In this document: positions 14,596-20,156 of the stretch, one piece after another | Layout of the letters: the number at the start of each line of letters is the position of its first letter | Numbering within the stretch: the first letter of the stretch is position 1 | Virus record (IMG/VR): IMGVR_UViG_3300027861_000166 | Coordinates: 1-26,965 of that record | Length of the DNA stretch: 26,965 nucleotides | Reading direction: 5' to 3' (one strand) | From: a virus | The notes under the pieces: generated by a model | Databases searched by the model: none | What the model was told of the DNA's origin: nothing | What the model saw: the letters and a program-made list of their open reading frames with translations, nothing else | Position numbers and translations under genes: made by a program

Positions 14596-17367
14596 TTAAC
14601 GCCTTCTTTGTGCGTTTGTATTTTGTGAAAGCGATTTGGAAACACGACTGTTTGAATTGTTCATATCCGCTGCAATTACACTAGGCGCTTCATTTCTAAC
14701 AACCCTGCTTGCTTCGTCTCTTGCAATTATTCTAACATCTTTTTCGTTTATTCTTTCAACAGTTATTTCAGAAGAACCGTAATTTTCAACAAATACGTTC
14801 AACTCTGTTTCAGTTTGTGCATTAGATGTTGTTCTAGTTCCACCGTTTGCCATATTGAATAATTGCGACTGTTGAGCACGATTCAAAACCATTTCACCGC
14901 TGTTTACTCGTGCTGTCAAATTGTCGCCAGTGAAACTAGTTCCAGGAACAACACCGCCGTCTTGGAAACTACCAGCGTTTCTTATCCGCTGCACATTTGC
15001 CAAGCCGACGCTAATCGCTGCTGCTGCTGCTGCTGCACCCAATGCAGGACCGACATAGGGAACACCTGCCAAAGAGGCATAAGCGCCCGTTGCTGCCTTG
15101 TAGGTGTCGATTGTAGCACCTGCAATAGCCGCTGCTCTACCGATACGCGCTTGCTTCTTATTTTCAGAGTTCTGCAAGCCGGATAAATGACCAAAGAACG
15201 TTTCAGCAGTTCTCAAGCGCTCTTCTTGAGCCTTATTCCAAATTTTGACCTTTTCACCGTGAGCTTGCCATTCATTTATAACGTCACGCTTTCTAAGTTC
15301 ATCTATTAACGCATAACCCCTTTCAAGTTCTTCTATTCTATGCGTCATAGATGACTTTTGAATTTCTTCAAACTTGCTCTGCAATTCCGTTTCAGTTTGA
15401 ATTAACTTAAGCTTTTCTTTCAATGCGTTTCTTTCAAGCTTTGTTAACGTAATCTTTTTACTCAACAATTTGTTGTTTATTCTATCAAAGCGTTGCTGAA
15501 GCTCACCTTCACGACCGATTAATTTAGTAAGTCTAAGTTGCGAATCCAATTCGCGGTTAATCTTTCTTAAAGTATCTGCTCTTTTTTCAGCAGCTTTTCT
15601 AGCTTTAGGATCGACCACAGCGGGAGCTTCGCCAGCCTGTCTTAAAGTATCAACACCACCTGCTTTTCTAGCTGCTCTTATTTTAGCAACGCGTTTTTCA
15701 ATTAACGCAAAAGCTTTGCCTATAAAATCAGTGCCAAATGCTTCTTTAAACTCTTTTTTGGCAATAGCACCAATTTCAACTAAAGCACCCGTCATCTTCT
15801 TTTTATATTTATCTAACTTGACATCAAATTTAGATAAATCAAAAATAGGATCTTTTCCCAAAAACTTAGCAGCTTCGTTAGCTAGTTCCAACGGGATAGT
15901 TAATTTTTTAACAACAGCGTTGACCATATTTTCAACAACGCCAATAACTAAATTATTAGCTAGAATAAATATATCTTCTAATGCGTTTGGAAACAGTTTC
16001 CAAGCTGAAATAACTGTATTAAGTGATCCAGAAAAGAGACTAATTATCCAATTAACAGAAGTTTTTACAAAGCCCACAACCATATCAAGGCCGTCCATAA
16101 ATAACCTTTGAAAGCTATCAACCTCTAATATAGTACCCTCGAAAGCGCTATTCCACAGTTTGCCAAATGTATCAGCTGCCCATTTGATTTCCTCAACGAT
16201 CAATTGAGAGAATGCAACAAAGTAATCACCAGCAATTACAAGATTATCAGCAAGGCTTAAAATCCCAGTTGATAAGCCGTCTGTAATTCCAAATGCTTTA
16301 TTTATTTCACCAAAAGCCCGAATTGCACTATCTTTCAATACAGTCCAAGCCTGTCCAAGTGTGGGCGTTAATTTAGCAAATCTTTCATCAGTTTCATCAG
16401 CTAATTCAGAAATAGCATCTCTTAAGACTTCAACAGTAAGTCTACCGTCTGCTGACATTTTCTTCAATTCACCTCTGGTGACTCCAGCGCTATCAGCAAT
16501 TTGATCAAGAACTTTAGGCATTGTTTGACTAATAATTCTAAACTCTTGACCTCTTAAACGACCTTCATTGAATGCTTGCGAAAGCTGTAACAATGCAGAT
16601 GATTGTTCTTGTGTAGTTGCACCAGATAGCAACAACAGTTTGTTCAATGTTTCAGTAAGTCTTAAAGACTCTTCTTGTGAATTTCCCAACTTTCTCAAAG
16701 ACAAATCAAAACGTTGAAAAGCTTGTGCTGTAGCAAGAACTGATGTTCTAGACCGCCTAGAAACTTCAAATATTTCATTAGTTAAAACTAACAATTGCTC
16801 TTCAGTGTCTACAACATTTTTTAACTTGTTTTGTAAGATAGTAAAAGCATCTGCAAGTCTTAAAATCGCTTGAGCAAATCGAAGTGCAACATAAGCTTTT
16901 GCTAGAGTTAAGAATGATCCAAGGCTAGCCGCTGTTCTCGAAACACCGCTTCTAACTTTTTTACCAGTTTTAACTAGTTTTTCTTTAGCATTTCTAAGTC
17001 TTAAAGAAGCAATTTCAGCTCTTTTTGTTGCGGCTATTGCACGTTGCCTTGCTGCTGTCGTTCTATGCATTGAAGCTATAGATCTTTGTCTAGCAGCTGT
17101 CGTTTTTTCAACCTCCATCCTTGCTTTTTGTTGCGCCAACGCTGTTTTTTCAATTTCAGTTTTTACTTTTTGTTGACCCAACGCCATTCTAGTTTGTATG
17201 TCAGCAAGTCTTTTGAAAGGAGTGGTGTTGATTGTAGATAAGCTTTTCTTCAATCTTTTGATATTAGCATCTGCGTTTCTAGCTACTGTAGCAATGCGTA
17301 AAAGCTTTTTAGCAACGTTAGATGAAACCTTATCTCTTATTTCAATGTCAATTCTTTCATCTGGCAT
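14596..17367 (-). CDS. Tape measure protein (923 aa)
   Basis: Residues 64-133 are five 14-residue repeats (GQQKVKTEIEKTAL, AQQKARMEVEKTTA and related), an alpha-helical rod. The conserved tape measure domain spans ~200-350 (GRLRGQEFRIISQTMPKVLD, then TPTLGQAWTVLKDS). Hydrophobic helices at ~428-490 could insert in a membrane. A coiled coil spans ~600-720, and a Gly/Ala-rich part (GPALGAAAAAAAISVGLANV) is followed by GGVVPGTSFTGD and NSGEMVLNRAQQSQLF, the usual C-terminal signature. It sets tail length and is ejected with DNA; at ~0.15 nm per residue the tail would be near 138 nm. AAAGGC supports the start. Confidence 0.93.
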   Translation of the reverse strand: MPDERIDIEIRDKVSSNVAKKLLRIATVARNADANIKRLKKSLSTINTTPFKRLADIQTRMALGQQKVKTEIEKTALAQQKARMEVEKTTAARQRSIASMHRTTAARQRAIAATKRAEIASLRLRNAKEKLVKTGKKVRSGVSRTAASLGSFLTLAKAYVALRFAQAILRLADAFTILQNKLKNVVDTEEQLLVLTNEIFEVSRRSRTSVLATAQAFQRFDLSLRKLGNSQEESLRLTETLNKLLLLSGATTQEQSSALLQLSQAFNEGRLRGQEFRIISQTMPKVLDQIADSAGVTRGELKKMSADGRLTVEVLRDAISELADETDERFAKLTPTLGQAWTVLKDSAIRAFGEINKAFGITDGLSTGILSLADNLVIAGDYFVAFSQLIVEEIKWAADTFGKLWNSAFEGTILEVDSFQRLFMDGLDMVVGFVKTSVNWIISLFSGSLNTVISAWKLFPNALEDIFILANNLVIGVVENMVNAVVKKLTIPLELANEAAKFLGKDPIFDLSKFDVKLDKYKKKMTGALVEIGAIAKKEFKEAFGTDFIGKAFALIEKRVAKIRAARKAGGVDTLRQAGEAPAVVDPKARKAAEKRADTLRKINRELDSQLRLTKLIGREGELQQRFDRINNKLLSKKITLTKLERNALKEKLKLIQTETELQSKFEEIQKSSMTHRIEELERGYALIDELRKRDVINEWQAHGEKVKIWNKAQEERLRTAETFFGHLSGLQNSENKKQARIGRAAAIAGATIDTYKAATGAYASLAGVPYVGPALGAAAAAAAISVGLANVQRIRNAGSFQDGGVVPGTSFTGDNLTARVNSGEMVLNRAQQSQLFNMANGGTRTTSNAQTETELNVFVENYGSSEITVERINEKDVRIIARDEASRVVRNEAPSVIAADMNNSNSRVSKSLSQNTNAQRRR
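16969..17178 (-). repeat. Five degenerate 42-bp repeats inside the tape measure gene
   Basis: Protein residues 64-133 divide into five consecutive 14-residue units, each beginning G/A-(Q/R/S)-(Q/L)-(K/R). The first two units are closest to each other, and units three and four to each other. This suggests stepwise duplication. Because tape measure length sets tail length, gain or loss of a unit would change the tail by about 2 nm. Confidence 0.7.
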
Positions 17368-17369
17368 AA

Positions 17370-17804
17370 TTAAGCCTTTAGTTTAGCTTGTCTAACTTGC
17401 TTTTTTCCTAACAATGCAGCGCGTTCAACGAAACCAGCAGGAGTTTGGCCCGAATAACCGTCGTTCAATCGATTGATATAAGGCAAAACGTTACTTACAA
17501 AAATAACCTGTCCTGGTTTTTTACCTTTCAAAATTTGCTTTGCTGCTGCAATAGTCGCTTCAGCGCTTGCACGTTGAGTTGAACCAAAGAAACCGGGCGA
17601 ATAAGGAAAGACAGGAACATTGACAGGATTGTCTAAACCAACTTGCCAGTTTGATAACGCTTGAGAAGAATCAACGGGTGTTTGATATGCTAAATCTATA
17701 ATAATAGTAATAGCTACCTTAACAGCAAGTTCGCTAGCTTCAGTTTTATACTTGCTAGCACGTCTTTCCATGCTTTCCGCTAAATCTAAAAGACTTTTAC
17801 CCAT
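17370..17804 (-). CDS. HK97 gp10-like tail completion/minor tail protein
   Basis: The 144 residues carry the pattern of the HK97 gp10 family: a helical N-terminus (LAESMERRASKYKTEASELA), then YQTPVDSSQALSNWQVGL, close to the family's PVDTGRARGNW motif, and a C-terminal NRLNDGYSGQTPAGFVERA. The family usually acts at the head-tail joint and sits before the tail terminator gene. Here it lies between the chaperones and the tape measure, which is unusual. The start overlaps the stop of the chaperone T frame (TAATG). It may have moved, or it may have a tail-specific role. Confidence 0.72.
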   Translation of the reverse strand: MGKSLLDLAESMERRASKYKTEASELAVKVAITIIIDLAYQTPVDSSQALSNWQVGLDNPVNVPVFPYSPGFFGSTQRASAEATIAAAKQILKGKKPGQVIFVSNVLPYINRLNDGYSGQTPAGFVERAALLGKKQVRQAKLKA

Positions 17805-18118
17805 TACTTGTTTTTCTTATTCATGTGTTTTAAATACGCTGTATCCATTTCACGCACAAAGAAAATCAAATCTTCCGTTTGCTCAAAATCAAAACCGTAA
17901 TAACCCGCATAAGTAATAATGCTTGACCATGAAATAACCTCATTCAATCTGTCTGAATCTAAATCTAAAAAAGCTTGAAGATAAACATTTAAACCTTTTA
18001 GAAGTTCAGGCTTGTTTGCTATTCTTTCTGGTATCGGCTCATTAAACCTTAAACACTGGTCAATTATGTTCTGCTCTACTTGCTCCATTTCGAGTTTATA
18101 AAGCAGAACTTCAGTTAG
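17804..18118 (-). CDS. Tail assembly chaperone T part, made as a -1 frameshift fusion (GT)
   Basis: The frame is open from the slippery site and continues to 17804. It contains an ATG at 18088 but no Shine-Dalgarno site, and its start LTEVLLYKLE lies in-frame directly after the slippery heptamer. Ribosomes that slip back one base at A AAA AAC (18118-18124) extend the 131-residue G protein by 104 residues to a 235-residue GT. T-like features are SWSSIITYAGYYGFDFEQTE and a Lys-rich end. In lambda, G and GT bind the tape measure and recruit tube protein; the order tube-G-GT upstream of tape measure is the same here. Independent translation from 18088 is less likely. Confidence 0.8.
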   Translation of the reverse strand, partial: LTEVLLYKLEMEQVEQNIIDQCLRFNEPIPERIANKPELLKGLNVYLQAFLDLDSDRLNEVISWSSIITYAGYYGFDFEQTEDLIFFVREMDTAYLKHMNKKNK

Positions 18119-18124
18119 TTTTTT
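18068..18124 (-). promoter_or_regulatory. Programmed -1 frameshift signal (slippery heptamer plus stem)
   Basis: Read on the minus strand, A AAA AAC (18124-18118) sits in the correct phase, immediately before the G stop codon TAA. Eight bases later GTTCTGCT (18109-18102) can pair perfectly with AGCAGAAC (18075-18068), an 8-bp stem with a 26-base loop that could stimulate slippage. The -1 frame is open across the site. The ATG at 18088 lies in the loop. Confidence 0.8.
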
Positions 18125-18510
18125 GACTCTGTTTCCAAATCGTTAAAATACTCATTATCGAAAGCCTTATCGTGTAAATCGTCAAAAAACTCGGGCCATC
18201 TTGGATCAGTGAGCAAGCTCATTGCTGCTTTTTTACTAAACTTGATAGGCTTACCTTCATCGTCGGTTACACCTTTCCAAGCTAGCAAGGCATTGTCAAC
18301 AAAGATTTCAACCATCTTTTCTTCGCCTTGCTTTTCAGTAATTTTATTACGCCTTACTTCTTTCGCTACTCGCTCAACTGCAACTTTATATGCTTTGTTT
18401 CGCTTGCAAAGACGTTTAACTTTAAAAGCTAAATCTTCATCGTAATTAATCCAAGCGCCTTCTTGTTCTTTTTCTTGATTTGTACCAAATCTTTCAATAA
18501 GGGTTTTCAT
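18115..18510 (-). CDS. Tail assembly chaperone G (131 aa)
   Basis: A charged, helical protein that resembles lambda G-type chaperones: AFKVKRLCKRNKAYKVAVE in the first half and LLAWKGVTDDEGKPIKFSKK followed by LLTDPRWPEFFDDLHDKAF in the second. It binds the tape measure during tail assembly and is not part of the finished virion in the lambda model. The ATG at 18510 is chosen because the longer frame (to 18660) would run through the low-complexity leader and into the tube gene. Its ribosome binding site is weak. It ends directly after a slippery A AAA AAC, so a minority product is the GT fusion. Confidence 0.82.
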   Translation of the reverse strand: MKTLIERFGTNQEKEQEGAWINYDEDLAFKVKRLCKRNKAYKVAVERVAKEVRRNKITEKQGEEKMVEIFVDNALLAWKGVTDDEGKPIKFSKKAAMSLLTDPRWPEFFDDLHDKAFDNEYFNDLETESKN

Positions 18511-18521
18511 CTTCTGTTCTC

Positions 18522-18568
18522 TTTTGTTTTTGGTTTTTGTTTTTGTTTTTGGTTTTGGTTTTGGTTTG
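18522..18568 (-). repeat. A-rich simple repeat leader before chaperone G
   Basis: On the minus strand this is about eight units of CAAAA, CAAAAA or CCAAAA (plus strand TTTTG/TTTTTGG). It lies between the hairpin that follows the tube gene and the chaperone ATG, and is non-coding under the preferred start. The RNA would be unstructured. It could act as a spacer or translation enhancer; unit number may vary by slippage. Confidence 0.75.
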
Positions 18569-18577
18569 TAGAGTAAT

Positions 18578-18609
18578 GGTAAGCCGGGAGCCGAAACCCC
18601 CGACCTACC
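18578..18609 (-). terminator. Hairpin 12 bases after the tail tube gene, attenuator-like
   Basis: On the minus strand, GGTAGGTCGGGGG pairs with CTCCCGGCTTACC over 13 positions, including three G-U pairs, and the loop is TTTCGG. No T tract follows, so full intrinsic termination is unlikely. A role in lowering read-through into the chaperone genes or in protecting the tube mRNA 3' end is plausible. Confidence 0.5.
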
Positions 18610-18620
18610 AAAAACAACTT

Positions 18621-20156
18621 TTAAGCAGGCATGCCCACAGTAGGCACGTAGGGGAGCCAAGCGCTCAACAAGGTGTAACCCGTTGGGCTTTCTGCTGCAT
18701 TCGTGTCAAGCGGGATGGTGATAGGAGCATCTTTTTCAACGTTCAGACGACCGCCGCCAAGGGCAATCAACGGCATGTCAAATACAACTGCTGAATTACG
18801 TTGAGCAACAATCATATTTAATGCAACGTCGCTATTGTTTCGAACTGCTTGCATTGCTGCAACTTCACTAAAGAAAGCAGTAACAGAACCTGAAACTTCA
18901 AAGTCACCTGCTGCTGCATCAAATGCGCCAAGCGTTCCAATTGCTTTAGTTGGAGTAACATTGTTATTAATTGCAATGTCAGCTTCAGAAATGTAAGCAA
19001 ATAAAGCGGTTGGATTCAACGTTACAGGATCAACAACAAACATTTTAATACGATAAACATCAGACGATGTATTAAACGCATCTTCATTTGGTGAACTATG
19101 ACGATTTCCGGTTTTGATACCGGTCGTTCCGTCGCGTTGAGTATTATCCATTGCTACAAAACTAAGATCTGCATTTAGCTTGTCAGCTTGTGGGATGTTC
19201 AACGTAAATTCATTAGCAATTGCACCTTCAAGATACTCCGATTGAGTACCATTTGCATCTTGCCCCAATTGACGTTCCAAGTTGTAAGAACGACGGACAA
19301 TCAATGTTGGATCTTCTTCGTTACGTATAACAGTACCAAAGAAGATTTGGAGTTCTTCAGTTGTGGTGTTTTCAGTAACTGGTGTCCAAGTTGTATCATC
19401 AAGTTCAAGAGCATTTGCAGCAATCGACTTTACCCTTGCATAACCAGGATCGTTATTTGCAAATTGATTTATTGTTGCGTCACCGCCTACAAAAATCCAT
19501 TCGCCGACGTTCAATTGCATTGTTGTAAAATCGGCAATAGTCGTGCTCAATATGATACTTGAAGCACTTGCTGTGATATCAAGATCACCAGCAGCGAACT
19601 CAAAACCACAAGCTTCAATAAATGAAGCCGCTGGCGGTGCAGCTTCTGCAACTAAAGTTTCTTCAACTTCAACAGCAGTTGCACTAACGGTAATAACCTT
19701 TTTCAAACCGTCGTTTGTCGCATCACCAAAATTTGAACCTTTAATCAAATGACCAACTAAGAAGCTACCAAGACCGCTAGCAGCTTGATATTCCTCATTT
19801 GCACCAGTGACAACAGCAGTCAAAGCAACAGCTGTACCATTGAGGGGTGCGGTTGATTCCTTTTCACGAGCGTTAGCAAAGAAAAACCCTTGCATGAGAC
19901 GTGTTAGATTGTTTTGCGTAACATCGGAGTTAAAACCGCCTGATGCGTCAAGGTCGGTCGTAGTACCCTTTTTAAGTTGTCTAGATGGATCAATTGGTGC
20001 TCTTGCCACGTTTGTAAGTTCACCACCAAAATCGGAATACGAATTCGGCTCAAGTCCAAACCAATCGGGCGTTACCGAAAGCTCTTTTAAACAATCCTCT
20101 TCAGCATAAGCTAAACCGGTTACATTGCTATCAATTTTGTTAATATCACAAGGCAT
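18621..20156 (-). CDS. Major tail tube protein (511 aa)
   Basis: The N-terminus (MPCDINKIDSNVTGLAYAEE) and the domain following it match tail tube proteins of the Phage_tube_2 kind. YNLERQLGQ, LEGAIANEFTLNIPQ and FVAMDNTQRDG are typical of the core fold, and the C-terminal ALGGGRLNVEKDAPITIPLD is also characteristic. At 511 residues it is larger than many tube proteins; an extra domain (~residues 110-270, Ala/Thr-rich) is inserted before the core. The ribosome binding site AAAGGAGG is the strongest in the window, as expected for the most abundant tail protein. The tail terminator gene precedes it and the chaperone genes follow. Confidence 0.85.
   Translation of the reverse strand: MPCDINKIDSNVTGLAYAEEDCLKELSVTPDWFGLEPNSYSDFGGELTNVARAPIDPSRQLKKGTTTDLDASGGFNSDVTQNNLTRLMQGFFFANAREKESTAPLNGTAVALTAVVTGANEEYQAASGLGSFLVGHLIKGSNFGDATNDGLKKVITVSATAVEVEETLVAEAAPPAASFIEACGFEFAAGDLDITASASSIILSTTIADFTTMQLNVGEWIFVGGDATINQFANNDPGYARVKSIAANALELDDTTWTPVTENTTTEELQIFFGTVIRNEEDPTLIVRRSYNLERQLGQDANGTQSEYLEGAIANEFTLNIPQADKLNADLSFVAMDNTQRDGTTGIKTGNRHSSPNEDAFNTSSDVYRIKMFVVDPVTLNPTALFAYISEADIAINNNVTPTKAIGTLGAFDAAAGDFEVSGSVTAFFSEVAAMQAVRNNSDVALNMIVAQRNSAVVFDMPLIALGGGRLNVEKDAPITIPLDTNAAESPTGYTLLSAWLPYVPTVGMPA

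Follow-up and report, generated by a model that had tools for sequence, protein, structure and literature searches.

The G/GT frameshift of phage lambda is established, as is its role (PMC5009743). There, a two-frame tail assembly chaperone ahead of the tape measure gene gives a short G protein and a minor G-T fusion, the latter when ribosomes slip by -1 on the heptamer G GGA AAG close to where G ends. Closer to the locus described here, Acinetobacter phage Loki (gp12/gp13) and IME_AB3, which belong to the same family, carry AAAAAAC beside the stop of the first chaperone gene, where frameshifting has been predicted; the accessible part of the Loki account does not discuss downstream structure (PMC5313236). 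In the homologous genes of Burkholderia phage KL1 (gp18/gp19) a frameshift has been predicted on GGGAAAC adjoining the stop, and its authors folded only 35 downstream bases (PMC3483164). AAAAAAC has also been reported for phiCbK. Given these reports, neither the slip site nor the A-rich heptamer at our locus is new, and frameshifting in tail chaperone genes is of a known kind, ordinary for tailed phages. Outside tail genes, E. coli dnaX joins the A-rich heptamer A AAA AAG to a downstream stem-loop and an upstream Shine-Dalgarno stimulator. Among IS elements, stimulators that act at long range or form a three-way junction have been described, and those of alphaviruses are diverse (PMC5009743).

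We analysed a stretch of 26,965 nucleotides (hereafter the window), covering positions 1 to 26,965 of IMG/VR virus record IMGVR_UViG_3300027861_000166, whose minus strand carries a two-frame tail assembly chaperone (Table 1). The G protein matched the tail assembly chaperone profiles phrog_313 (E 2.7e-20) and phrog_8233 (E 9.9e-20), and the T protein matched phrog_3817 (E 2.3e-28) and PF23812 Phage_TAC_18 (E 6.3e-20; 71.5 bits against a curated cut-off of 27). The single profile phrog_8233 covers G (6-135) as well as T (138-251); since it holds both halves, fused products have already been deposited. As in lambda-type G/GT pairs, the two chaperone genes are placed between those for the major tail protein and the tape measure, and the order tail tube, G/T, Neck1, tape measure is also present in annotated relatives. 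Unlike lambda, the window has T separated from the tape measure gene by a Neck1/tail completion gene; in KL1 an intervening tail protein gene precedes the tape measure gene (PMC3483164).

Table 1. Features of the chaperone locus and its neighbours, in window coordinates.
Feature	Position	Strand	Remarks
Tape measure gene	14596-17367		Downstream of the Neck1 gene
Neck1/tail completion gene	17370-17804	(-)	phrog_169; between T and the tape measure gene
T extension, -1 frame	17804..18118	(-)	Would lengthen G by 104 residues past the slip; ends at TAA 17806-17804; phrog_3817, PF23812
Hairpin 3' arm	18068..18079	(-)	GUAGAGCAGAAC; T codons V-E-Q-N; class I partner; mean pairing probability 0.997
Hairpin loop	18080..18097	(-)	18 nt; weak 3-bp inner stem; contains ATG 18088-18086
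Hairpin 5' arm	18098..18109	(-)	GUUCUGCUUUAU; T codons V-L-L-Y; position conserved family-wide
Spacer, heptamer to stem	18110..18117	(-)	8 nt
G stop TAA	18115..18117	(-)	First codon past the heptamer
Slippery heptamer A AAA AAC	18118..18124	(-)	In phase (tcA AAA AAC TAA); adjoins the G stop
G frame, tail assembly chaperone	18115..18510	(-)	131 aa; ATG 18510 to TAA 18117-18115; phrog_313, phrog_8233
Tail tube gene	18621-20156		Upstream of G; phrog_290 / PF18906

The gap between the tail tube gene and G (window 18511-18620, minus strand) holds a hairpin followed by an A/C-rich leader nearly without G and U (AACCAAAACCAAAACC...). A hairpin and A/C-rich leader likewise precede G in L002 (2915-3000), the nearest relative, and the other relatives checked have a hairpin before G with an ordinary leader.

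At the end of G the minus strand reads GAG TCA AAA AAC TAA CTGAA GUUCUGCUUUAU...GUAGAGCAGAAC. An earlier, sequence-only reading had proposed that A AAA AAC lies in phase directly 5' of the G stop and that the -1 frame is open into T. Both were borne out: the heptamer lies as described, and the -1 frame, which opens 25 nt before the G stop, stays open to TAA 17806-17804. The open reading frame coordinates also agree with the products proposed at that time, 131 residues for G and 131 + 104 = 235 for the predicted G-T fusion, and the limits then given for the whole element (18068-18124) are exact, the 3' arm of the hairpin ending at 18068. Lambda-type G/GT genes have this arrangement, in which G ends close to an in-phase X XXY YYZ heptamer and the -1 frame is open into T, although the window differs from lambda in having A AAA AAC directly before the stop and a strong hairpin 8 nt downstream.

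We then turned to T homologues gathered from phage records and viral contigs, whose 90 distinct junctions form our main set. Starting again from seeds in other branches, we made a further collection, of which 35 sequences sharing less than 90% identity with the main set and with one another served as the held-out set. A genome contig scan gave only three further relatives, and viral contig scans with single proteins just one close relative. All 125 distinct relatives (90/90 main and 35/35 held-out) have an in-phase slippery heptamer at the junction; loss of the heptamer in close relatives, one of the outcomes that by the earlier reading would refute it, was seen in none. Among the 125, the heptamer is AAAAAAC in 88, GGGAAAC in 32 and GGGAAAT in one, counting those at the exact junction, with four nearby; for the 90 of the main set the corresponding numbers are 67, 20 and one, plus two with GGGAAAC one codon upstream. 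Within the family, A AAA AAC occurs more often than any other form, it has been published for Loki and phiCbK, and the special notice once suggested for the A-rich heptamer is not supported. KL1 shares with the window the heptamer adjoining the stop and differs in its GGGAAAC. The nearest relative, 84% identical in G, keeps both heptamer and stem, and GenBank holds joined coding sequences for the relatives KL1, AH03 and RcRudolph.

Slippage by RNA polymerase on the run of six A, which would put an extra A into some transcripts, is another way in which the T frame could be reached. Six A is a short run for polymerase slippage, however, and many relatives have GGGAAAC at the same place, with no long homopolymer, while the downstream helix is conserved at a ribosome-like spacing. 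We consider this route very improbable.

The G stop usually adjoins the heptamer and comes one codon later in some relatives. It lies 39 nt past the heptamer in two phages, CN2 of Bordetella and PaSz-9 of Pseudomonas, where G consequently extends into the region of the downstream RNA helix. We also observed homologous chaperone loci in bacterial assemblies, namely a Wolfebacteria MAG contig, an Anaerolinea MAG contig and a Gilliamella genome; these are possibly prophages or binned phage contigs.

T might instead be initiated separately, with the two frames simply overlapping. The first ATG, GTG or TTG in the -1 frame is ATG 18088, and many GenBank records carry T as a coding sequence of its own. 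Yet no Shine-Dalgarno sequence precedes ATG 18088 in the window, in line with the earlier remark that T has no ribosome binding site of its own, and the codon is located in the hairpin loop. In the T alignment, the first post-slip residue is an invariant Leu (L1), L5 is invariant and V4 nearly so, all upstream of the ATG, whereas position 11, where the window has its ATG, may be Met, Leu, Gln or other and is Leu, Gln or other in most relatives. Because the T residues upstream are conserved and the ATG itself is not, ATG 18088 is not the T start, and the ATG in the stem loop, singled out in the earlier reading, has no special role. The first possible start codon is at position 11 in only 9/90 relatives, which, taken with the residue conservation, argues that T is read from the slip site. 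Moreover, the separate T coding sequences of relatives in GenBank start at scattered positions, often truncated and past the slip site (L003, L007, L011, L023 and others); in phage BL5, a 72-codon T stands against a 119-codon -1 frame. Separate initiation therefore strikes us as scarcely credible. Judged from the sequence, T would have no start of its own and would be made only as a fusion, as in lambda-type pairs.

A programmed -1 frameshift of the lambda G/GT type in the tail assembly chaperone gene, helped by the hairpin, is in our judgement highly probable. Most ribosomes would read G and halt at TAA 18117, giving the 131-aa protein; a minority would slip by -1 on A AAA AAC and read T, giving the 235-aa G-T fusion, and the 12-bp hairpin, with its base 8 nt downstream, would aid the slip. 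We infer slippage in the cell, and likewise its rate. In E. coli, which may not be the host here, ribosomes shift less readily on A_AAA_AAC than on A_AAA_AAG according to a review (PMC5009743). By analogy with lambda, the two products would share a role in tail assembly as chaperones, G coating the tape measure protein and the T part recruiting tail tube subunits.

The hairpin of the window comprises 12 bp (10 Watson-Crick and 2 G-U), pairing 18109-18098 with 18079-18068 at -20.1 kcal/mol, and its fold energy is well below that of shuffled sequences (z -3.7 for dinucleotide and -5.0 for synonymous-codon shuffles). A perfect 8-bp stem starting 8 bases downstream had been proposed here. The 8-nt spacer holds and the first eight pairs are indeed Watson-Crick, but the helix runs to 12 pairs rather than 8, and the loop is consequently 18 nt with a 3-bp inner stem. 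The stem is worth describing, as had been thought, though for another reason: its 3' partner differs between clades. In L002 both G-U pairs of the window are replaced by C-G or U-A. The A-rich heptamer and downstream stem-loop are shared with dnaX, but the window has A AAA AAC where dnaX has A AAA AAG, and a search for an upstream Shine-Dalgarno-like stimulator found none (mean z -0.43; 0/90 relatives below p 0.05). An Rfam search of 17700-18700 gave nothing at gathering score, with sub-threshold matches only.

Across the family, we compared the fold energy of the 48 nt downstream with shuffles that preserve the T protein and the codons used. Just past the slip site the mean z was about -2.1, with 53/90 relatives at p<0.05; a second stretch (T nt 53-101) had a mean z of -1.85, and the next four stretches were near zero. 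Covariation scored column by column for the entire family proved uninformative, since clades differ in their pairings and amino-acid differences dominate, and we replaced it with per-sequence synonymous-codon tests. One pairing from the covariation scan, T nt 30-33 with 63-66, was rejected as a clade signal that arises in the protein (codon 11 is M/L/Q and codon 22 A/C).

Pairing registers were numbered i+j, with T positions counted from the final heptamer base (nt 1). When 1445 registers were scanned without bias, 165, 125 and 61 came out on top, with 46 close behind. Register 61 (class I) is the stem of the window, with 3' arm codons IEQN and an 18-nt loop, and register 46 (class II) is a short hairpin with 3' arm codons LEQG and a 5-nt loop. 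In register 125 (class III) the same 5' arm pairs with codons APEL about 90 nt away, in a predicted three-way junction, and register 165 is a second hairpin within the class III loop. By fixed thresholds, 63/86 relatives belonged to class I, II or III, compared with 9.2 (maximum 14) in shuffled genes; other registers of the same 5' arm held a mean of 0.9 sequences. Since the registers had been picked on the main set, we retested them on the 35 held-out sequences. Of 106 registers, 46, 125 and 61 once more ranked highest, 61 level with the adjacent 47, and 20/35 sequences fell in a class, against 3.25 expected.

The remaining 22/86 relatives are outside all three stem classes, and strong hairpins in other registers occur among them, as in Lokivirus L010 and L061. 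KL1 fits a class III stem (score 28, p 0.01), while its short-range fold does not improve on synonymous shuffles (z +0.45), so that a 35-nt fold would miss the long-range stem. The predicted class III junction recalls the three-way junction stimulator of IS911 in lying downstream of the slip site, but the genes are unrelated, and the hairpin of the window is of the simple class I kind. A further, weak class III complementarity in the window (GAAGUUC with GAACUUC; score 19, p 0.05) was treated as chance or a relic, because it is absent from L002 and has a predicted pairing probability of 0.0015.

The second hairpin, about 60-100 nt past the slip site (T nt 54-103; codons (A)MRxG...PERIA), is selected beyond the protein in many relatives (for example L007 1072-1121, L027 and L058) and is weak or absent in the window (about 18065-18016). 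It forms the inner arm of the three-way junction in class III and is free-standing elsewhere.

A further possibility is that the frameshift is real and the hairpin incidental, reflecting the amino-acid sequence without stimulating slippage. A clear stem is missing in some relatives, and slippage is possible with little structure. This explanation must nevertheless meet the excess of pairing over synonymous-codon shuffles at three registers, in the main and held-out sets alike, and the presence of compensatory double changes. Compensatory counts are favoured, most class members having been selected for pairing (the class I alignment adds four unselected sequences, L025, L027, L042 and L043), and with that reading class I has double changes at 7/12 pairs and 88.9% of cells paired, against at most 54.4% with the arms slid, and class II has double changes at 7/11 pairs and 93.4% of cells paired. 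For the class III three-way junction, 85.0% of cells are paired against at most 41.3% when slid, with 48 double-change cells against 19.6 in shuffles; the number of pair types is not above shuffles. In 130-nt ensemble folds, the classes pair as assigned (mean probabilities 0.73, 0.84 and 0.89). RNA pairing is kept beyond what the protein sequence requires. An incidental hairpin is accordingly unlikely in our view, and the class structures, that of the window included, would stimulate frameshifting.

The classes cluster on a tree built from G and T proteins joined together (22 changes against a shuffled mean of 46.5). Class I nevertheless needs several changes on this tree, 7 of them forced by well-supported branches; since some forks are weak and some branches long, the number of switches is approximate. 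The window and L002 are placed within a mostly class III clade. We lean towards a helix whose base is held at a nearly fixed distance past the heptamer, whose 3' strand has been repeatedly exchanged (LEQG, IEQN, APEL) and which stimulates frameshifting. If the start of the helix is fixed and its partners exchanged, selection would hold the position of the helix base and not one structure. A limited search of the open-access literature found no earlier description of partner exchange in tail chaperone genes.

What our computational results would add to a familiar kind of frameshift is a helix, found family-wide, that starts at nearly the same place and exchanges its partners. If this is true, the recoding signal conserves where the ribosome meets a helix and leaves the pairing partner free to vary, and the exchanged partners would offer a ready natural series of variants of one signal. 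Reading of T from the slip site would also account for the frequent wrong, truncated T starts in the annotations of these phages.
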